Source of the DNA: Paramesorhizobium leguminum | GTDB lineage: Bacteria; Pseudomonadota; Alphaproteobacteria; Rhizobiales; Rhizobiaceae | Direction: 5' to 3' | Assembly: GCF_003217235.1 (NCBI RefSeq) | Contig: NZ_QJTF01000022.1 | Span: 1-64,000, forward strand | Length of the DNA: 64,000 bases | Shown here: piece by piece, positions 5,647-59,246 of the stretch | How the letters are laid out: each line of letters opens with the position of its first letter | Numbering within the stretch: the stretch's first letter is position 1 | Made by a program: the position numbers and the translations under genes | The notes under the pieces: model-generated | Seen by the model: only the letters and a program-made list of their open reading frames with translations | Told to the model about the DNA's origin: nothing | Database searches by the model: none

Positions 5647-7245
5647 ATGACCAAAGCCGACCAATATATCCTGGCGATCGATCTTGGCACCAGCGGCTGC
5701 AAGGTCGGGCTGGTTTCGATCACCGGCAAGGTGGTTGCCTGGGGGTTCCGGCCGGTTCCCTTGATCGTGGTGGATGAAATCGGCGCTGAGCAAGACCCGG
5801 CGCAATGGTGGGATGCATTCATCGAGGCGGCGCGGGATGTGCTCGCTCAGAATGCCGTCCCGCGCGAAAACATCGTCGCGGTCTGCTCGTCGGCCCAGGG
5901 TGAAGGAACGATCGCCGTCGACCGCGATGGCAAGGCGTTGATGAACGCGATCATCTGGCTCGACATGCGCGGGGCGCGCTACTTGAAAAAGGAAATGCGC
6001 GGCCTGCTGAACGTCGCGGGTTACGATCCGATCAAGCTGCAAAAATGGCTGAGGCTGTGCGGCGGCGCGCCGGCCTTGTCCGGCAAAGACCCTGCCGGCC
6101 ATATGCTGCTGATCCGCGACGCCTTTCCTGATATCTACGAGAAGACCTATAAATTCCTCAATGTCCTGGATTTTCTCAACTTGCGGCTTACCGGCCGCTT
6201 CTGCGCCACGCAGGATTCGATCCTGACCTCCTGGGTTACCGACAACCGTGACGTCGACAATATCCGCTATGACGACGGGCTGATTGGCTTAGGCGGCATC
6301 GACAAGGCAAAATTTCCGGAGCTGGCGCGCTGTACGGATATCGTGGGAACCCTGCTTCCTTCCGTCGCCGAATCCTTAGGCCTTTCGCCGAAGACGCCCG
6401 TTGTGGCCGGCGCCATCGATAATTCGGCGGCGGCTATTGGCGCCGGTACGCTTGGGGACTATGACACCCATCTCTACATGGGGTCGTCCTCCTGGATCGC
6501 CGCGCATGTACCCTTCAAGAAGACGCACGTTCTAAATCAGATCACATCCGTTCCTTGCCCGGTTCCGTCGAAATATCTGATGATGGCGATGCAATCGAGC
6601 GGAGCCAGCAACATCGCCTTCCTCAAGGATCGCATCGTCTTCCACGATGACGGCCTGACCCGCTCGGAACCGACACCCGACACTTACCGGATACTCGATG
6701 AAATCGCGGCGCGCACCGCAGCGGGCGCCGGCGGCATGATGTATCTGCCCTGGCTCTTCGGGGAGCGATGCCCGGTGGACGACCCCACGCTTCGAGCGGG
6801 TATTTTCAACATGAGCATAGGGCATAACAGGGAGACACTGGTGCGGGCCGTATTCGAGGGCGTTGCGCTCAACACGCGCTGGATGATGAAACCGGTGAGC
6901 AAATTTCTTGGCCGTAAGCCGGACGAGATCACCATGATCGGCGGCGGTGCGATGTCGGGCGCCTGGTGCCAGATATTCGCCGATGTGCTGGGGGTGTGCA
7001 TCCGCCAGCCGCATGAGCCGATGAAGGCGAATGCGCGCGGCGCCGCTTTTATCGGCGCCGCCGGTCTCGGCCTCATCCGCATCGAGGATGCCGCAAATCT
7101 CGTGACGATCGATAAGGTCTACGAGCCGGCGGCAGCCCAGTGCGCGCTTTATGATGAGCGCTTCGCCATTTTCACCGAATTCCACCGGCGGCTCGCGCCG
7201 CTTTACAAACGTCTGAATGGTGCGAAGGGCAGCGCGCATGGCTAG
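5647..7245 (+). CDS. FGGY-family carbohydrate kinase
   Basis: The 532-residue product is an ATP-dependent sugar kinase. It shows the N-terminal phosphate motif AIDLGTSGCKVGLV (about residues 9-22), the substrate-side segment SSAQGEGTIAVDRDG, and the C-terminal GGGAMSGAWCQIFADVLG adenosine-binding motif. Length and motifs are closest to xylulokinase/gluconokinase-type FGGY enzymes. It is the first gene of a four-gene overlapping operon with a class II aldolase, which matches the common kinase plus sugar-phosphate aldolase arrangement (as in fuculose or ribulose breakdown). The ribosome site before ATG 5647 is weak. The sugar cannot be named from sequence. Confidence 0.85.
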   Translation: MTKADQYILAIDLGTSGCKVGLVSITGKVVAWGFRPVPLIVVDEIGAEQDPAQWWDAFIEAARDVLAQNAVPRENIVAVCSSAQGEGTIAVDRDGKALMNAIIWLDMRGARYLKKEMRGLLNVAGYDPIKLQKWLRLCGGAPALSGKDPAGHMLLIRDAFPDIYEKTYKFLNVLDFLNLRLTGRFCATQDSILTSWVTDNRDVDNIRYDDGLIGLGGIDKAKFPELARCTDIVGTLLPSVAESLGLSPKTPVVAGAIDNSAAAIGAGTLGDYDTHLYMGSSSWIAAHVPFKKTHVLNQITSVPCPVPSKYLMMAMQSSGASNIAFLKDRIVFHDDGLTRSEPTPDTYRILDEIAARTAAGAGGMMYLPWLFGERCPVDDPTLRAGIFNMSIGHNRETLVRAVFEGVALNTRWMMKPVSKFLGRKPDEITMIGGGAMSGAWCQIFADVLGVCIRQPHEPMKANARGAAFIGAAGLGLIRIEDAANLVTIDKVYEPAAAQCALYDERFAIFTEFHRRLAPLYKRLNGAKGSAHG

Positions 7246-8044
7246 GTTCATGATCGAGCGGCAGGAGATTGCCGATACCTGTCGTACTCTCGCGGACAAT
7301 GGCTATCTCGCCGGAACCGGCGGCAATATCGGCGTTCGCGTCGATGACCGGCTGATGGCCGTGACGCCATCCGCCACGGACTATTCATCCATGCGGGCGG
7401 AAGATGTGGTGATCCTCGATATCGAAACCCTCGTTGTGGTGGAAGGCGACAAGGCCCCGACCATCGAGAAGGGCCTGCATGCGCGGATGCTTGGCTTTCA
7501 TCGTAACCGCAAAGCCAGCGTCCATACGCATCAGCCGATTGCAAGCGCCGTGGCGCTGCTGCATGAGAAGCTGAATTGGCAACTAGACCCATCCGCCGGT
7601 TGCCCCTCACCCTTACCCTCTCCCCGTAAGAACGGGGAGAGGGGGACGTCCGCGCTTTCGCCAATTTCTTTGCCAGGAGATGACGAACACGGAAAAGCGG
7701 CAACATCGATGCCCCCCTCTCCCCGCGCGCGGGGAGAGGGTAAGGGTGAGGGGCAATCGGGCATCGCGGCGCTCGGCTCCCATGTCGCGCGCGTCCCTTA
7801 CCGGCCATCCGGCACGGGAATGCTGGTCAAGGCTCTCGCCAACGCGCTGCGGCCGGATGTTTTTGCTTATCTTCTCGCAAGCCACGGCATCATCTGCGCC
7901 GGAACCGACCTCAAGACCGCGACCGGGATGATTCGCGAGATCGAAGCCAGCGCCGCCGCTTATCTGCGTGGCCGCATCTTGAAAAACATCAATCTCGACA
8001 GCCAATTACAGGCGTTCATCATGGACGCGCTGGAGAAGGCTTAA
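7238..8044 (+). CDS. Class II aldolase/adducin-family protein with an in-frame palindromic repeat insertion
   Basis: The 268-residue product is a zinc-dependent sugar-phosphate aldolase-type protein. Metal ligands are visible: H96 and H98 in SVHTHQP and H216 in LLASHGIICAG; a glutamate at 77 is the likely catalytic residue. Residues ~122-173 do not belong to the family. They are the translation of a family-B palindromic repeat (7601-7755), reading CPSPLPSPR ... RGEGKGEGQ. Without it the protein would be about 216 residues, the normal family size. Start ATG 7238 follows AAGGG and overlaps the kinase stop (ATGGCTAG). It is not a pseudogene by sequence: the frame is open and the catalytic residues remain. 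Whether the insert is tolerated in the fold is unknown. Confidence 0.85.
   Translation: MARFMIERQEIADTCRTLADNGYLAGTGGNIGVRVDDRLMAVTPSATDYSSMRAEDVVILDIETLVVVEGDKAPTIEKGLHARMLGFHRNRKASVHTHQPIASAVALLHEKLNWQLDPSAGCPSPLPSPRKNGERGTSALSPISLPGDDEHGKAATSMPPSPRARGEGKGEGQSGIAALGSHVARVPYRPSGTGMLVKALANALRPDVFAYLLASHGIICAGTDLKTATGMIREIEASAAAYLRGRILKNINLDSQLQAFIMDALEKA
7601..7755 (+). repeat. Family B palindromic element, copy 1, inside the class II aldolase gene
   Basis: Two inverted arms (TGCCCCTCACCCTTACCCTC ... GAGGGTAAGGGTGAGGGGCA) bracket a ~70-bp variable centre, and each arm contains its own CTCCCC...GGGGAG hairpin. The span is 155 bp by my count. It is read in frame through the aldolase gene without a stop. 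The same repeat occurs at 45905-46063, 54397-54554 and 56918-57071. Confidence 0.92.
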
Positions 8045-22118: not shown

Positions 22119-22151
22119 GGGGGGCTGGTCTTATGGAAACGCGAGGCATAA

Positions 22152-22309
22152 CCCCCCTCTGCCCTGCCGGGCATCTCCCCCTCAAGGGGGGAGATTGGCT
22201 GACATAGATGACGGCATTCATTCTGCAACGCCTGCGATTGGTGCCGTGCGCTTATGAAGGCGTAATCTCCCCCCTTGAGGGGGAGATGCCCGGCAGGGCA
22301 GAGGGGGGT
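22152..22309. repeat. Family A palindromic element, copy 1
   Basis: The arms are CCCCCCTCTGCCCTGCCGGG...CTCCCCCTCAAGGGGGGAGATT and its inverse. They flank a ~65-bp centre containing TTCTGCAACG-like and GATTGGTGCCG sequence. This copy sits between the convergent regulator and mipA genes and could act as a terminator. The same ~158-bp element occurs at 34711, 42208, 49953 and 59090. Confidence 0.92.
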
Positions 22310-22347
22310 GCCGTCCAGCCCGCGCTTCTTCTAAATCAATGCTCTAA

Positions 22348-34666: not shown

Positions 34667-34710
34667 GCTGTTCCTCCCTGTATTTCTTTTAAAACCGCTG
34701 GCGGGAAACA

Positions 34711-34868
34711 CCCCCCTCTGCCCTGCCGGGCATCTCCCCCTCAAGGGGGGAGATTACGCCTTCATAGGTGCTCGGTACCAATCGCCGACGTGGCAGAATA
34801 GAGGCAGGAGGCTGTGTCAGCCAATCTCCCCCCTTGAGGGGGAGATGCCCGGCAGGGCAGAGGGGGGT
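34711..34868. repeat. Family A palindromic element, copy 2
   Basis: A 158-bp element with inverted CTCCCCCTCAAGGGGGGAG arms. It occupies nearly all of the 233-bp space between the Gfo/Idh gene and the ATPase gene of the same operon. Confidence 0.92.
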
Positions 34869-42187: not shown

Positions 42188-42207
42188 TTTCGTGGCGTCG
42201 CGAGATA

Positions 42208-42365
42208 CCCCCCTCTGCCCTGCCGGACATCTCCCCCTCAAGGGGGGAGATTGGCTGACACGGCGCTCGGCCTTCATTCTGCAACGTTTGCGATTGGTGC
42301 CGAACATTCATGACAGCGTAATCTCCCCCCTTGAGGGGGAGATGTCCGGCAGGACAGAGGGGGGT
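42208..42365. repeat. Family A palindromic element, copy 3
   Basis: 158 bp, with GCCGGACATCTCCCCCTCAA arms (ACAT/ATGT variant of the other copies). It fills the 224-bp gap between two genes of the same operon. Confidence 0.92.
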
Positions 42366-42411
42366 ACTGCCCCACCAACGTTTCAAAATAATCCATTCAA
42401 GGGAAGCGGGA

Positions 42412-45904: not shown

Positions 45905-46063
45905 TGCCCCTCACCCTTACCCTCTCCCCGTGAAAATACGGGGAGAGGGGGACATGGACGTCTTCGCCTTCTTTTTCTGCTAGGTGCTGTAGGAGAAGAA
46001 AGAGGCGGCAAGGCTCACGTCCCCCTCTCCCTGCTTGCGGGGAGAGGGTAAGGGTGAGGGGCA
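45905..46063. repeat. Family B palindromic element, copy 2 (intergenic)
   Basis: 159 bp by my count, with TGCCCCTCACCCTTACCCTC and inverse arms. Read in the phase used by the genic copies it meets a stop (TAA) in the second arm, so this copy could not be carried inside a gene in that frame. Confidence 0.92.
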
Positions 46064-49913: not shown

Positions 49914-49952
49914 GTGTGGATATCCCCGACGTGGCCGCGTACCCGCCGAACA

Positions 49953-50110
49953 CCCCCCTCTGCCCTGCCGGGCATCTCCCCCTCAAGGGGGGAGATTGGC
50001 TGACGCGAACCACGCCTCTCATCCTTCGACGTTTGCGATTGGTGCCGAACGTCTATGAAAGCGTAATCTCCCCCCTTGAGGGGGAGATGTCCGGCAGGAC
50101 GGAGGGGGGT
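49953..50110. repeat. Family A palindromic element, copy 4
   Basis: 158 bp with the usual arms and centre, lying inside the iol operon between iolB and the TIM-barrel gene (224-bp gap otherwise empty). Confidence 0.92.
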
Positions 50111-50137
50111 ATGGCTTGGAACAAACATCAAAAACCC

Positions 50138-50932
50138 CTACACCAACCGCTCAACCGCCGGAGCAGCCACAAAGCGCCATTTGCGCAGCGGTCCGGCCAT
50201 GACGTTCAAATAATACATCTCAAATCCGGGAGGCGCCCCGCAAGGATGATGCCCGCGGGGGACGCAGACCACGTCGCCGTCATGCACGGCCATGGTTTCG
50301 TTGAGCGTCAGATCGTCGGTATAGACCCGCTGGATGCCGAAGCCGTCAGCCGGGTTCAGACGGTGATAATAGGTCTCTTCCAGATAAGTGATGCGCGGGA
50401 AATCATCCTCGTCATGGCGATGGCTCGGATAGCTCGACCAGTGACCAGCCGGCGTGAATACCTCCGTCACCAGCAGCGAGTCGCAGTAATCCTCGTTTTC
50501 CATGGCGATATTGTTGATGTAGCGGGTGTTCGTGCCTTCGCCCCGCTGCGTCAGCGTGATGCCATCAGGCCCGATCCGCCGCGCCTCGTGGCCTCCGTTG
50601 CCCGGCGCGGAGCAGACGGCGATGACGCAGTCCGTCTCCGCGACTGCCTCCCACTCGCTGCCATCAGGCAAATACAGGCAATGCGGCGGCGATTTCTCAA
50701 AAACGCTCATGCGTTGGCCCAGCACACCCCAATCCCGCCCCGCACCCTGAATTTGCGCCTTCCCCTCGACCATGACGAGGATGACCTCGCAGTCCCCGGT
50801 CGCCTCCGCCGCGCGCTCGCCCGCCCGCAGGCGGTAAAGCGAAAAGCCGACATAGCGCCAGCCGGCAAGCGCCGGAGTGATCTCGTGCACCTTGCCATGG
50901 GTGCCGAACGGGCGGTGAAGCAGATTGGGCAT
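50138..50932 (-). CDS. iolB: 5-deoxy-glucuronate isomerase IolB
   Basis: The 264-residue bicupin isomerises 5-deoxy-glucuronate to 2-deoxy-5-keto-gluconate. It shows the hallmark HWSSYPSHRHDEDDFP metal site and the second-cupin motif VHDGDVVCVPRGHHPCGAPPG, plus YYLNVMAGP near the end. It starts 4 bp after iolE in the operon direction (50937 to 50932). Confidence 0.94.
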   Translation of the reverse strand: MPNLLHRPFGTHGKVHEITPALAGWRYVGFSLYRLRAGERAAEATGDCEVILVMVEGKAQIQGAGRDWGVLGQRMSVFEKSPPHCLYLPDGSEWEAVAETDCVIAVCSAPGNGGHEARRIGPDGITLTQRGEGTNTRYINNIAMENEDYCDSLLVTEVFTPAGHWSSYPSHRHDEDDFPRITYLEETYYHRLNPADGFGIQRVYTDDLTLNETMAVHDGDVVCVPRGHHPCGAPPGFEMYYLNVMAGPLRKWRFVAAPAVERLV

Positions 50933-50936
50933 GGTT

Positions 50937-51839
50937 TTACTCCTGGATTAAACCTGTTTCAGCCGCAGCAGCTTTCAGCGTCTTCAAGCCAAGAGACTGG
51001 TATTGAAACGGGTTACGAACATCCGGGTCCTGCTCGGCCTCGATGACGATCCAGCCATCATAACCCACATCTTTCAGGATGCTCAGGAGCGGCACAAATT
51101 CGACTCCGCCTTCCTCGTCGCCCGGCACGGTGAAGACCCCGGCACGCACGCCATCCATGAAGGACATGCCGCTCTCTCGAACCTGACGCATGATGGCGGG
51201 GCGCACGTTCTTGGCGTGGAAATGGCTGACCCGGTCGGCATATCGGGACAAAACCGGCGCTGGATCCTGTCCGTTTGACCCGAAATAACAATGCCCCGCA
51301 TCGAAGAGCAGCCGCGTATTCGGGCCGGTTGCCGCCATGAAAGCGTCGATCTCTTCGGGCGTTTCAACCACCGTTCCCATATGGTGGTGATAGACGAGAT
51401 GAATGCCCTGCGCCGCCGTGAACGCCGCAAGCTCTTCCACTTTCGCACCGAAAGCCTTCATCTCCTCGGGCGTAAGAACCGGACTTTCACTCAGCGGCCT
51501 GGCCAAACCCTGAATGCTGTTCGAGGTCTCGCAGACGATGCACACCGTAGAGCCATTATGCTTCAACCTGTCCAGATGGCGCTGGATCGCTTTTTTCTCC
51601 TCTTCCACGGAGTGCGCGAGCAGATTCAGCGAATACCAGCCGGACACGAAGGCCAGACCATAAGAGCCAAGCAATTGTTTCAATGCTTGCGGATCGTCCG
51701 GCCAGCGATGGCCGTTCTCGATGCCGTCGAAGCCGATATCCGCCGCCTCGCGCAATATCTGTTCGGTCGGAATGTTTGCGCCAAGGGTCTGGTCGTCATC
51801 ATTGGCCCAGGCGATGGGGTTGGTGCCGAAGCGGATCAT
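50937..51839 (-). CDS. iolE: Myo-inosose-2 dehydratase IolE
   Basis: The 300-residue TIM-barrel dehydratase converts 2-keto-myo-inositol to 3D-trihydroxycyclohexane-dione. Start [16 protein letters not shown], then [31 protein letters not shown] and [10 protein letters not shown] carry the metal ligands; VIEAEQDP provides the last glutamate. It follows iolD by 7 bp. Confidence 0.94.
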
Positions 51840-51846
51840 GTTTTCC

Positions 51847-53679
51847 TCAATTCACAACTCTCTGTTTCGCTGACGCCTCAAGGTACCGCGCATAGGCCTC
51901 TTTAAGCTTGTCGGTAGTCCCCACCTCCGGCACAGCCACATCCCACCACTGTCCAGCATCGCCGAAGCCCGGCCCATGGGTCGGATCCGTGTCTATGACG
52001 ATAACCGTCGGAATGTCTCGTCCCCGCGCGGCGGCGATTTGCGCTTCCAGATCGGCAATATCTTTCGCCTTCACCGCAACCGCGCCCATCGATGCCGCAT
52101 GGGCGACGAAATCGATCTGTGGCTGCTGCTCTATGTTGCAATCCCTGTAGAGATTGTTGAACGGCTCCCCGCCGCTTAGCCGCTGCAGGCGGTTGATGCA
52201 GCCGAAGCCGCGGTTGTCGGTGAGCACCACTGTGAACGGCACCTTGCGCATGACGGCGGTCGCCAGCTCCGAATTCGCCATCATGTAGGAACCGTCGCCA
52301 GCGAAGCAGATCACCTCGCGGTCGGGCCGCGCGAGCTTGAGCCCCATCGCCCCGGCGATCTCGTAGCCCATGCAGGAATAGCCGTATTCCATATGATAGC
52401 CGCCCTGGCTCGCCTGCCAGAGCAGCTTGAGCGCACCCGGCATGGTGCCGGCGGCGCCCATGGCGATGGCGCTTTCCCCGGTCGCGCGCTGCACCGCGCC
52501 GATGACTTGCGCATCCGTTGGAAGTCCTTCGCCTGAGGGGGCGGCGCAATGGCGGTTCACGGCGGCAAGCCATTCGGTTCGCGAGGCAGTATCCGGCATG
52601 GGGGCGCGATGATCTCCAAGTATGTCGCTTAAACCTTGAAGAGCAACCTTCGCATCGGCCACGAGGCCGACTGCGCCGTGCTTGTCCGCATCATAGCCCT
52701 GCACGTTGATCGAAACGAGCTTCATATCTTTCGCCTCGAATAGCGACCACGAGCCGGTGGTGAAATCCTGAAAGCGCGTGCCGATGCCGATGACCAGATC
52801 CGCCTCGCGAGCAAGCGCATTGGCCGCCGCCGAACCATCGACGCCCGCCGCGCCGAAATTCATCGGATGGGCCTGCGCCAAAGCCGATTTTCCTGCCTGC
52901 GTCTCGATGACAGGAATAGAGTGGCGGATGGCGAAATCGGCCAATTCCTGCTCCGCTTCGCTGTAAATCACGCCGCCCCCGGCGACGATGACAGGACTTT
53001 TCGCGGCGCGGATCAATGCGGCAACGTCCTCCAGATCGCGCCTGTCCGGCACAGGCCGGCGGATGCGCCAGACATGTCGCTCGAAGAAGGCTTCCGGCCA
53101 GTCATAGGCTTCCGCCTGCACATCCTGGCAAAACGACAGCGTCACCGGGCCGCAATTGGCCGGATCTGTCATCACCCGCAGCGCCCGTGGCAGCGCCGTC
53201 AGCAATTGCTCGGGCCGCGTGATGCGGTCGAAATAGCGGCTGACCGGGCGGAAGCAATCATTTGCGGATACGGTGCCGTCGTCGAAATCTTCCACCTGCT
53301 GCAGCACCGGGTCCGGCCGGCGGCTGGCGAATACATCGCCCGGAATGAGAAGCACGGGGAGCCGGTTGACATGGGCGAGCGCCGCCGCGGTGATCATATT
53401 GGTCGCGCCCGGCCCGATGGAGGACGTCACGGCCTGCGCGCGGCGACGCTTCATCGCCTTGGCATAGGCGATGGCCGTGTGCGCCATGGTCTGCTCGTTC
53501 TGGCCGCGCCAGGTGGGCAGGCCATTGCCCGCCTGCTGCAGCGCTTCGCCAAGGCCGGCCACATTGCCATGGCCGAAAATCGCCCATACGCCATCGACGA
53601 AACGCTCGCCCTCTTCCGTCATTTGGCTCGCAAGCCATTTCACCATGGCTTGCGCCGCCGTTAGTCTGATCGTGCTCAT
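51847..53679 (-). CDS. iolD: 3D-(3,5/4)-trihydroxycyclohexane-1,2-dione hydrolase IolD
   Basis: The 610-residue TPP enzyme opens the inositol ring. It has the N-terminal glutamine-type motif [11 protein letters not shown] (IolD's version of the activating glutamate region), the central FAD/ADP-like domain and the C-terminal TPP motif [19 protein letters not shown]...NRGFG. ATG 53679 overlaps the iolC stop (ATGA). Confidence 0.94.
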
Positions 53680-55763
53680 TGCGCTTTAGCCTTCTCCCGT
53701 GCGGCGTCCCACACCCGGCAAAGCCGGGCATATCGCGCCGCCATGTCGTCCACTGCTTGCCCATCGGAGATTTCTCCGCCAAGCCAGCGCCGCGCCGCAT
53801 CGGCGAAGATCGTGCGCCCGACGGCAAAGCCCTTGACCAGATCGAAACGGGCGGCGACGTCGAAGCTCTCGGCAAGCTCCGCCTCCGGCGCATCCAGCCC
53901 AAGCACGACGATGCCGCGCGTATGCGGGTCATGCGCCTCTATGGCGGCGATGGCGTTGGCCCAACCGGTCTCGGTCTTCATCGATTCCAGTTTCCACCAG
54001 TCTGGATAGATGCCCGCCGCGTAGAACTGATGGACCAGCGTCGCGACCGTCATATCGCCGGTTGCGCCGACCTTGGAGGGGATGATCTCCAACAGGAATT
54101 CCAGCCGGTTGCGCCGCGCCGCCTCGAACAGTCTTTTGACAATCGCCTCCTGGGCAGCGCGTGTGTCGGCATCGTCATCCGGATGGCAGAAGCACAGCAC
54201 TTTCACCACCTGCTCGCGCGCCCACTCCGCGAGCCCTCCGCAATCGGAACCCAGTTCCGGCTCCAGCATCAGCGGACGCGATCCCGGCCATTCCGCCGGG
54301 CGCCCAATCCAGAGACCGGTGCCGGATGCCCGATGCAGCGCCGAGCGGCCAATGCGGTTGTCGCAGAGGATGCCGTAGCCATCGGAGGTGGTGGACTGCC
54401 CCACACCCTTACCCTCTCCCCGTGAATTACAGGGAGAGGGGGGCGTCAGCGTTGACGCTTCTTTCTGTTCTGCTGTGCCTGGCTCAATGGATAGGGCACC
54501 AGCGTGGATGCGCCCCTCTCCCCGCAAGCGGGGAGAGGGTAAGGGTGAGGGGCAATGCGCCGCCTGCACCCGCAAGGCAGCGTCGAGGCAGAGTTCCTTG
54601 AAGGCCGCGCCCTTTTGCGGGGTGTAGCCCGGCATGTCCTCGAGTTGTTTGCGGTGGTCGAAGGCGAACACGCGCATGGTAGACCAATCGCCACCCGCCC
54701 GCGTGTGGCGCGTGGTTGACCAGTGGATCTGCTCCAATTCCCTATCGTTGCGCAAATCGGCGCGCTTTACGCCCCGCGCGAGGAAAAACTGCAATTCCTC
54801 CCAGCTCGGATAGGCCGGCGTACAGCCATGGCGGCTGACGGCGAAGGCGCCGCAGGCATTGGCAAATTTCAGCGATGTGGACCAGTCCGCTCCGCTCATC
54901 CAGCCACGCAACAGGCCGGCGAAGAACCCGTCGCCCGCGCCCAGCACGTTGAACACCTCTATTGGGAATCCCTGTCCGCTTTGGCCATTGTCGAGGCTAT
55001 CGGGTATCTCCCCCTCGAAGGCGACCGCGCCGAGCGGCCCGCGCTTGCAGACCAGCGTCGCGGCGCTGACGGCGCGAACTGCGCGGAGGGCCGCAATCGT
55101 ATCGGTCGATCCCCCCGCGATGTGGAACTCTTCTTCGGTGCCGACGATCAGGTCGAAATAGTGCAGCGTCGATTGCAGCCGGGCGGTGACCTTGGCGCTC
55201 TCGACAAACCGGCTTTCGCCCTCGCCGTGGCCTGCGACGCCCCAGAGGTTCGGGCGATAATCGATATCGAGCGCGGTGCGGAGACCATGCTTGCGCGCAA
55301 GCCGCAGTGCCTTGATCACGGCGGCTTCAGTGTGCGGGTGGGAAAGATGCGTGCCGGTTACCACAATGGCCCGCGCGACAGCGATGAAGGCTTCATCGAT
55401 ATCGTCCTCGCAGAGCGCCATGTCGGCGCAGTTCTCGCGGTAGAAGATCAGCGGAAACTGCGTGTCATCGCGGATGCCGAGGATGACCAGCGCGGTGAGC
55501 CGTTCGGGATCGACCTTCACGCCCGCGGTTGACACACCTTCGCGCGCGAGCTGCTCCAGGATGAACCGTCCCATATGCTCGTCACCAACGCGGCTGATGA
55601 GCGCGGTCTTCAGCCCCAACCGCGCGGCGCCGCAGGCAATGTTGGTGGGCGAGCCGCCGATATATTTCTCGAACGAGCCCATATCCTCCAGCCGCCCGCC
55701 AATTTGTGTTCCGTAGAGATCGACGCTGGCGCGGCCTATGGTGATGACATCGAGGGTCTTCAT
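53676..55763 (-). CDS. iolC: Bifunctional IolC kinase-DUF2090 aldolase with an in-frame palindromic repeat
   Basis: The 695-residue fusion has a PfkB 5-dehydro-2-deoxygluconokinase (~1-330; IGGSPTNIACGAARLG, and FNVLGAGDGFFAGLLRG with the catalytic aspartate). A C-terminal DUF2090 domain (~360-695) takes the place of the IolJ aldolase in many Proteobacteria. Together they give DHAP and malonate semialdehyde. Residues ~404-456 are the translation of a family-B repeat ([14 protein letters not shown] ... RGEGKGVGQ), inserted between KELCLDAALRVQAA and GYGILCDNRIGRSAL early in DUF2090. Removing it gives ~642 residues, the usual length. ATG 55763 overlaps the preceding stop. Frame and active-site regions are intact. 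Confidence 0.92.
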   Translation of the reverse strand: MKTLDVITIGRASVDLYGTQIGGRLEDMGSFEKYIGGSPTNIACGAARLGLKTALISRVGDEHMGRFILEQLAREGVSTAGVKVDPERLTALVILGIRDDTQFPLIFYRENCADMALCEDDIDEAFIAVARAIVVTGTHLSHPHTEAAVIKALRLARKHGLRTALDIDYRPNLWGVAGHGEGESRFVESAKVTARLQSTLHYFDLIVGTEEEFHIAGGSTDTIAALRAVRAVSAATLVCKRGPLGAVAFEGEIPDSLDNGQSGQGFPIEVFNVLGAGDGFFAGLLRGWMSGADWSTSLKFANACGAFAVSRHGCTPAYPSWEELQFFLARGVKRADLRNDRELEQIHWSTTRHTRAGGDWSTMRVFAFDHRKQLEDMPGYTPQKGAAFKELCLDAALRVQAAHCPSPLPSPRLRGEGRIHAGALSIEPGTAEQKEASTLTPPSPCNSRGEGKGVGQSTTSDGYGILCDNRIGRSALHRASGTGLWIGRPAEWPGSRPLMLEPELGSDCGGLAEWAREQVVKVLCFCHPDDDADTRAAQEAIVKRLFEAARRNRLEFLLEIIPSKVGATGDMTVATLVHQFYAAGIYPDWWKLESMKTETGWANAIAAIEAHDPHTRGIVVLGLDAPEAELAESFDVAARFDLVKGFAVGRTIFADAARRWLGGEISDGQAVDDMAARYARLCRVWDAAREKAKAQ
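54397..54554 (-). repeat. Family B palindromic element, copy 3, inside iolC
   Basis: 158 bp by my count. It is read on the minus strand through iolC in the same phase (CPSPLPSPR start) as copy 1 is read on the plus strand through the aldolase. Its span has the same remainder modulo 3 as copy 1 (155). Confidence 0.92.
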
Positions 55764-56872
55764 CACTGCCCTCCGATCCGGACGGGCGTTCCGTTTGACG
55801 CCGCCATGGCATGGATGATCCGTTCTATCTCCAGCCCATCCGCGAAATCAGGTCCAACGTTCGGGCCGCCTGCAATGGCGGTGAGGAGATCGCGGGCCTC
55901 GATCACCTTCTGCTCATTGAACCCGAAATTATGGCCGGGAGCGGGGCAGAAGGCGGCGTAATCCGGTTGAGCGGGGCCGCTCAGGTGCCGCACGAAGCCG
56001 GCCTCTCCGGCTCGGTGCACCCAAAGCTCGTTCATGTTCTCCTGGTCGAAAATGATGGTTCCGTTCGTTCCATGCGCTTCCCATTGCAGCCGGCACTTTC
56101 GCCCGCGCGCCACGCGCGACGTGGCAAAGGAGCCATGCGCGCCGGACGCAAAACGCAACAGAGCCATGGCGCTGTCCTCGTTCTCCACCGCCTTCGCGCC
56201 CTCCCGCGAGGGACGTGCCGGTATGGCGATCTGCGTCTGCGCGATGACCTGTGTGACAGGTCCCATCAGCGCCAGCATCTGGCTCACAAGATGGCAGCCA
56301 AGGTCGCCGAGCGCACCGAGACCTCCGCCCTCATGCGTCATCCGCCACGACCATGGCAGGAGCGGATCGGCGGAATAATCCTCGTCATAGACGCCGCGAA
56401 AGGCAAGCGGCTCCCCGATCTCGCCATTGCGGATCATGTCGCGCGCCGCCTGAAAGGCGGGGTTCCTCAAATAGTTGTAGCCGAGCATCGTCATCTGTCC
56501 CGGATGGGCGGCGGCGGTGGCGGCCATTGCTTCCGCGTCGGCAAGCGTCAGCGCCATAGGCTTTTCCAGCCAGACATGCTTGCCGGCCTTCAACGCGGCT
56601 TCTGCCATGGGCCGGTGCAAACCGTTGGGCGCGGTGATGGACACGACATCGACCTTGGGATCGGTAACAGCCTCCTCCCAGCGGGCCGTGGCACGAGCAA
56701 AACCGAACTGGCTAGCGAAAGCGTTCGCCGCATCCTCCGTCGCATCCGCGAGGATTTCCAGCCTCGGATGCGCCCCGCTGAAAACCGCCGCGACATTGCG
56801 CCAGGCCATGGCGTGGCATTTGCCCATGAAGCCGGTTCCGATCAGGGCGACGCCCAATTCTTTCTGCGACAT
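55763..56872 (-). CDS. Gfo/Idh/MocA-family oxidoreductase (5), inositol operon
   Basis: The 369-residue dehydrogenase has [20 protein letters not shown], the catalytic motif VWLEKPMA and [21 protein letters not shown] with active-site aspartate/histidine. Its place directly before iolC (TGATG overlap) suggests a scyllo-inositol, other inositol-isomer or keto-inositol dehydrogenase alongside IolG, but this is inference. ATG 56872 has GGGAG upstream. A 229-bp gap with a family B repeat separates it from the ABC ATPase. Confidence 0.86.
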
Positions 56873-56917: not shown

Positions 56918-57071
56918 CGCCCCTCACCCTTACCCTCTCCCCGCGAATTGCGGGGAGAGGGGGACGTCATCGCCGGCGCCCTTTTTCTCCCCCTTGCCTG
57001 GCATGAGAAGGAGGCGCGGCGTTCATGTCCCCCTCTCCCCGTGTGCGGGGAGAGGGTAAGGGTGAGGGGCA
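56918..57071. repeat. Family B palindromic element, copy 4 (intergenic)
   Basis: About 154 bp, inside the iol operon between the Gfo/Idh gene and the ABC ATPase gene. Arms match the other copies (GCCCCTCACCCTTACCCTC and inverse); its span has a different remainder modulo 3 from the two genic copies. Confidence 0.92.
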
Positions 57072-59089: not shown

Positions 59090-59246
59090 CCCCCCTCTGG
59101 CCTGCCGGCCATCTCCCCCTCAAGGGGGGAGATCAGCCTTCATAAACGTTCGGCACCAATCGCAGATGTCTGATGATGAGGGCCGAGCGTCGTCCCAGCC
59201 AATCTCCCCCCTTGAGGGGGAGATGCCCGGCAGGGCAGAGGGGGGT
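59090..59246. repeat. Family A palindromic element, copy 5
   Basis: About 157 bp with one-sided arm changes (CTGGCCTGCCGGCCATC instead of CTGCCCTGCCGGGCATC). It fills the 228-bp gap between the binding-protein and permease genes. Confidence 0.92.

Follow-up and report, generated by a model that had tools for sequence, protein, structure and literature searches.

The iolC gene of Paramesorhizobium leguminum carries, within its coding sequence, a palindromic element of 158 bp that leaves the reading frame open and is very probably translated as part of the IolC protein. Compared by description with known repeats, it is an in-frame palindrome of the Rickettsia type, now in a free-living genus. 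We put at roughly 85% the probability that the element is a dispersed palindrome whose genic copies persist only when they are in frame and free of stop codons, and that these copies are tolerated as translated loops.

An in-frame palindromic element in iolC

The elements and genes discussed below lie at the following positions of the window, by which we mean the whole 64,000-nucleotide stretch of P. leguminum DNA that was analyzed. We term the element AA.

7217..8044, plus strand: class II aldolase/adducin open reading frame, host of an element; its PF00596 match runs across the insert
7601..7755, plus strand: AA element of 155 bp, in frame and in phase 0 within the class II aldolase gene
22151-22328, 34709-34868, 42207-42384, 49952-50129 and 59115-59246: family-2 palindromic doublets, which have other arms
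45905..46063, no strand assigned: AA element of 159 bp, between genes
50138..53679, minus strand: iolD (TPP enzyme), iolE (TIM barrel) and iolB (KduI/IolB), by Pfam, downstream of iolC
53676..55766, minus strand: iolC host gene, PfkB kinase plus DUF2090 (Pfam), with the element in the DUF2090 half
54397..54554, minus strand: AA palindromic element in iolC, 158 bp, 53 codons (CPSPLPSPR...RGEGKGVGQ)
54397..54422, plus strand: arm A at the left end of the iolC element, read last by iolC, one mismatch to the 22-mer
54529..54554, minus strand: arm A at the right end of the iolC element, read first by iolC, exact 22-mer
56918..57071, no strand assigned: AA element of 154 bp, between genes

The iolC frame (53676-55766, minus) is open right through the element, where the peptide ends ...SRGEGKGVGQ; the 53rd codon borrows one base past the element end. 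The 22-base arm sequence is TGCCCCTCACCCTTACCCTCTCCCCG, matched exactly at 54530-54551 on the minus strand and with one mismatch at 54400-54421 on the plus strand. The peptide of the aldolase copy ends similarly (...RGEGKGEGQ). The names iolD, iolE and iolB are inferred from Pfam families. A first-pass annotation of this DNA had described the same element in iolC and in a first copy on the opposite strand, here the aldolase copy, read in the same phase, and we confirmed its coordinates, both arms and the open frames. The four lengths it gave (155, 158, 159 and 154 bp) are exact, the genic two leaving a remainder of 2 on division by 3 (hereafter 2 mod 3) and the intergenic two remainders of 0 and 1. 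It had also reported that at least one intergenic copy meets a stop in phase 0, and this holds for the copy at 45905 in both orientations and for that at 56918 in one. The window contains 8 arms where 0 are expected from 100 shuffles, and no tRNA genes were found in it.

In an AlphaFold model of IolC built from 32 sequences, residues 406-461 have a pLDDT of about 25 and are flanked by a helix (383-404) and a strand (464-467) of the more confident DUF2090 domain, such that the insert is predicted to be a disordered loop. This structural placement is for IolC only. In DusB, another host, the two flanks join close to residue 267 of the DusB entry 6ei9, which by sequence alignment only is a domain boundary, and the flanks of the aldolase copy align to residues 5-110 and 118-187 of 6btd, meeting at 110/118.

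The iolC copy is common to P. leguminum and Paramesorhizobium endophyticum (G003; ‘Brucella endophytica’ CGMCC 1.15082), whose IolC, the nearest named protein, is 89% identical and contains the insert. Between the two species the element core is 99% identical and its flanks 85%, a disparity that our explanation cannot account for fully. On contig 32 of P. endophyticum (L207) there is, among the matches listed, a second iolC-like gene that is element-free and 73-79% identical over two parts.

Distribution of the element and its sister classes

AA elements are built of two inverted, hairpin-forming arms, with constant ends and a variable middle, and their commonest length is 158 bp. When up to 3 mismatches are allowed, the arm is matched 88 times in the 3.73-Mb P. 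leguminum genome (76 perfect, 10 with one mismatch and 2 with two), and a reversed-pattern control gives 0 matches. These comprise 26 AA elements of 135-166 bp and 36 elements with a single A arm, counted below as class AB. A second type of arm, B, was found 28 times in this genome, each time near one of these single-A elements and no more than about 240 bases from an A arm, and on that ground a BB class was rejected. Family 2, with 137 + 134 arms, forms doublets that vary very little in length: of the 88 in the loci examined, which are not all those of the genome, 84 measure 159-161 bp.

Among 61 genomes, that of P. leguminum included, a search requiring exact 16-base arms recovered the AA pattern in five: 22 copies in P. 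leguminum itself, 24 in P. endophyticum, 17 in G001, 5 in G004 and 2 in G055, which belongs to another family. Because this exact pattern was used for the other genomes, arm constancy there is biased upwards. All 48 places in the four other genomes were fetched and hold 49 AA elements, the extra one being L155:219. Of 297 genomes drawn from the order, 6 have AA, with at most 4 copies in any except P. leguminum. Two distant families within the order also have AA-like elements in few copies (g84, L237-L243; g51, L244-L245); judged with the P. leguminum coding score, none of these is a clear in-frame insertion in a gene.

Copies in genes keep the reading frame

Genic copies were recognized by a test of the flanks that is blind to the element, in which 240 bases on each side must be open and coding on one strand, the coding call being made with a hexamer score of our own that was trained on the long open reading frames in the same loci. 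In the absence of constraint, one third of such copies would keep the frame by chance. Both flanks are coding for 9 of the 26 AA elements of P. leguminum, all 9 of which are in frame and open, and for 15 of the 49 in other genomes, of which 14 are in frame and 12 open. Pooled, the frame is kept in 23/24 and is stop-free in 21/24. These counts include L070:14275 (phase 1, length 158), which passed the flank test but matches no Pfam family and looks antisense. In L157 and L180 the frame is kept but a stop is met, and L190 is out of frame; these three may be intergenic, with both neighboring genes on the same strand.

After exclusion of L070:14275, 20 copies, spread over 13 host genes, were taken to be genic; 19 of these copies have a length of 2 mod 3 and are read in phase 0. 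A length of 2 mod 3 is found in 19/20 genic copies versus 19/55 others (Fisher, 2.5e-6), or 12/13 when counted by host gene (2.9e-4), with L070:14275, L157, L180 and L190 taken as non-genic; without the two G055 copies the non-genic figure is 18/53. The association is stable at five score thresholds, and the genic lengths of 143, 152, 155, 158 and 161 differ in multiples of 3. The first-pass annotation had suggested that only frame-compatible copies survive in genes and had proposed a genome-wide examination of length and phase, which we ran on the P. leguminum genome and four others; the suggestion is strongly supported by the frame and length counts. Genic copies in several phases, which it had named as contrary to its idea, are represented by a single deviation (L185, phase 1, length 153).

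The eight P. leguminum hosts are a CydC-like ABC transporter, a CobC-like aminotransferase, TilS, YgfZ, a nitrate-reductase-like molybdoenzyme, DusB, aldolase II and IolC. The 12 relatives’ hosts are CydC, CydD, IolC, CobN twice, aldolase II, YgfZ, a two-domain carboxyltransferase, the molybdoenzyme, a CobC-like protein, an ATP-grasp protein and an unnamed open reading frame (L193). Host names finer than a Pfam family are our reading of the sequences. A Pfam scan covering 18 of the 20 genic copies matched a family in 17, in some cases on one side of the insert only; L193, with no match, is genic by coding score alone, and L156 and L188 were judged by orthologues. Because the carboxyltransferase element sits between two domains, we are less sure that this host is one intact gene. 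In the same two-domain carboxyltransferase frame, P. leguminum has a truncated single-A element in frame (L055:3280-3379) at the place occupied in P. endophyticum by an AA element (L175:2012-2169). The dusB gene is insert-free in the five other genomes of the genus. An exact empty site was not found, the dusB and tilS genes of relatives and the iolC paralogue of P. endophyticum being too divergent at the loop, and the inserted length is therefore only approximate.

One might suppose that in-frame copies are removed or skipped, by RNA splicing or ribosome bypassing, and that the protein is made without them. The three genic copies that we folded could form a very stable RNA hairpin (-103 to -115 kcal/mol), and one copy lies in tilS, an essential gene. 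However, frame keeping and stop avoidance would then be needless, yet 19/20 copies keep length and phase, and an Rfam scan of the window gave 0 matches. We consider this account very unlikely. The explanation we favor, persistence of in-frame copies as tolerated loops, would operate as follows. For an element that lands in a protein gene to persist, it would have to preserve the frame and be read without a stop. Since the commonest length of 158 bp is 2 mod 3, frame-keeping insertion is possible. Phase-0 reading would then yield a loop some 50 residues long, enriched in Pro, Gly, Ser and charged residues, that the host protein may tolerate at its surface.

Phase preference and the possibility of adaptation to translation

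The 38 orientations of non-genic AA elements with length 2 mod 3 are open in phase 0 in 29 cases, in phase 1 in 16 and in phase 2 in none. Phase 2 is stopped in every copy of length 2 mod 3 examined, so that the element is in practice read in phase 0. From these counts, a pure stop filter predicts phase 0 in about 64% of cases; all 12 host genes with copies of this length use phase 0, which at an expectation of 0.64 each, or (29/45)^12, gives p of about 0.005. There is thus a moderate indication of phase uniformity beyond a stop-codon filter.

The first-pass annotation had offered, as a second possibility, that the element is adapted to be translated, in which case its length, phase-0 openness and soluble Pro/Gly-rich peptide would have been selected for harmless entry into genes. 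The phase counts speak for this idea, as all 12 host genes use phase 0 although phase 1 is so often open outside genes, and so does the unused orientation of genic copies, which is likewise open in phase 0 in 18/19. The sister classes, rare in genes, give a further hint in the same direction: AA lies in genes in 8/26 cases versus 1/36 for AB (p 0.003) and 2/88 for family 2 (p 9e-5). The flank test is passed by 949/2000 stretches of 158 bp taken at random, and by this measure AA (9/26) is not strongly depleted from genes, whereas AB (3/36, with 1 in frame) and family 2 (8/88) are. Of the 8 family-2 doublets that pass, 4 keep the frame and 2 of those 4 are also free of stops, their hosts being CobN and a FAD-binding protein that we read as NadB; none of 12 single family-2 arms passed. 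Against adaptation, phase 0 is closed in 9/38 of the non-genic orientations, and phase could also be set by insertion-site preference. Evolutionary rates in shared copies, given next, also argue against it.

Evolution of shared copies and their hosts

Between species, the element cores of the IolC (0.99), CobN (0.85) and CobC (0.76) copies are more alike than the maximum of 0.75 seen between different genes. The cores in the molybdoenzyme (0.69), YgfZ (0.69, or 0.74 reversed), CydC (0.62) and AldII (0.57) fall below it, and these copies may have inserted independently at almost the same site. The molybdoenzyme core similarity is inconclusive, and for that reason pooled ratios are given for three pairs and for four. 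In the three pairs (IolC, CobN and CobC-like) the hosts have dS 0.70 and dN 0.09, and the element middle dS 0.21 and dN 0.10. The pooled dN/dS of the middle is 0.50, or 0.57 with the molybdoenzyme as fourth pair, versus 0.13 for the hosts. In three pairs the arms have no synonymous change at 45 sites, and 2 changes of other kinds; in four pairs they again have no synonymous change, at 60 sites.

The inner peptide is therefore weakly constrained, and the arms are unchanged at synonymous positions too. They are equally constant genome-wide, mostly outside genes, which indicates that their constancy does not serve the peptide. We see no good sign of selection on the element peptide and, the phase excess being moderate, regard adaptation to translation as improbable. 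Tolerance of in-frame copies, which we prefer, would be joined by conservation of the arms at the DNA level for reasons unrelated to the host protein, such as recognition by a mobilizing or binding protein, or conversion between copies. Plain tolerance does not explain why the synonymous rate in the middle of shared copies (0.21-0.26) is lower than that of the hosts (0.66-0.70).

Host evolution also bears on the proposal that the hosts are decaying genes whose frames are open by chance. The P. leguminum genome, at 3.7 Mb, is smaller than those of five others of the genus (4.9-5.6 Mb), as decay would have it. In seven host pairs, however, the flanks are under constraint (dN 0.04-0.20, dS 0.35-1.33), which contradicts decay for these hosts, and tilS and iolC each have one close match in the P. 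leguminum genome, with no second close copy of either among the matches listed. We consider decay, too, very unlikely.

Different inserts at one site of CobN and of tilS

In each of the six genomes of the genus, one loop of CobN (L257:950-1108, L297-L304) holds a palindrome or hairpin, in frame throughout: a family-2 doublet in P. leguminum and G004, a shorter family-2-like hairpin in G002 and G005, and AA in P. endophyticum and G001. Elsewhere in CobN, P. leguminum and P. endophyticum each seem, among the matches listed, to have one more family-2 copy. The tilS gene has AA in P. leguminum and a different insert at the same place in P. endophyticum (L214/L223). By eye, the latter insert is not of the A type.

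Relation to known repeats and mobility

By description, the nearest known kind to AA is the Rickettsia palindromic elements (RPE), with the Wolbachia analogue WPE. As described in three reports (PMC3767692, PMC10969869, PMC3733652), RPE are palindromes of about 100-150 bp, some families of which are often found as in-frame inserts in genes unrelated to one another, at solvent-exposed positions and with the same site kept in orthologues; different RPE groups occur at nearby positions of one gene, and frequent in-frame palindromes are reported for Rickettsia and Wolbachia, which are obligate intracellular bacteria. AA is likewise a short palindrome, in many copies (26 in the P. leguminum genome), that sits in existing genes with the frame intact. 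It differs in its free-living rhizobial genus, its build as a two-hairpin inverted doublet and its GC-rich arms. In the literature searched, mostly outside subscription journals, there was no report of in-frame palindromes in Paramesorhizobium.

A second comparison is with REPINs, which are REP doublets of two inverted hairpin repeats mobilized by RAYT. AA shares with them the two inverted hairpins, constant ends, variable middle and tens of copies. In contrast to REPINs, the P. leguminum genome lacks RAYT, with 0 matches to the Y1 transposase family (PF01797; one each in P. endophyticum and G004, or 2 of 6 genomes of the genus), and about one third of its AA copies are in genes. Of the tags GTAG and CGTC that mark the hairpin of REPINs, CGTC occurs, by raw count, at positions 37-56 in 14 of 52 P. 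leguminum AA arms.

AA also resembles MITEs in being short with terminal inverted repeats, and in-frame fusions are known for MITEs and intragenic ERIC (PMC10969869). Unlike MITEs, AA has no target-site duplication above chance, as direct repeats at the ends of 75 elements are no longer than in shuffled pairs, and a search confined to PF01797 brought up no full-length autonomous partner. Some copies are centered in a palindromic flank such as TGGCGCCAAG...CTTGGCGCC (L036:9163, L048:3241, L064:3033), and such a flank is perhaps a preferred target.

Implications for repeats that enter proteins

More speculatively, AA may be a gene-compatible mobile element that its length, its openness in phase 0 in either orientation and its soluble peptide allow to enter the genes of a free-living bacterium without destroying them. 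Its arms would be selected as DNA even inside genes, so that genic copies would stay live, while the sister classes, without these properties, are mostly excluded; we hold this to be rather doubtful. The three classes, alike in build but with only one common in genes, provide internal controls for asking why repeats enter proteins. In the CobN loop, a single site in the protein has received insertions repeatedly, the family differing between species.
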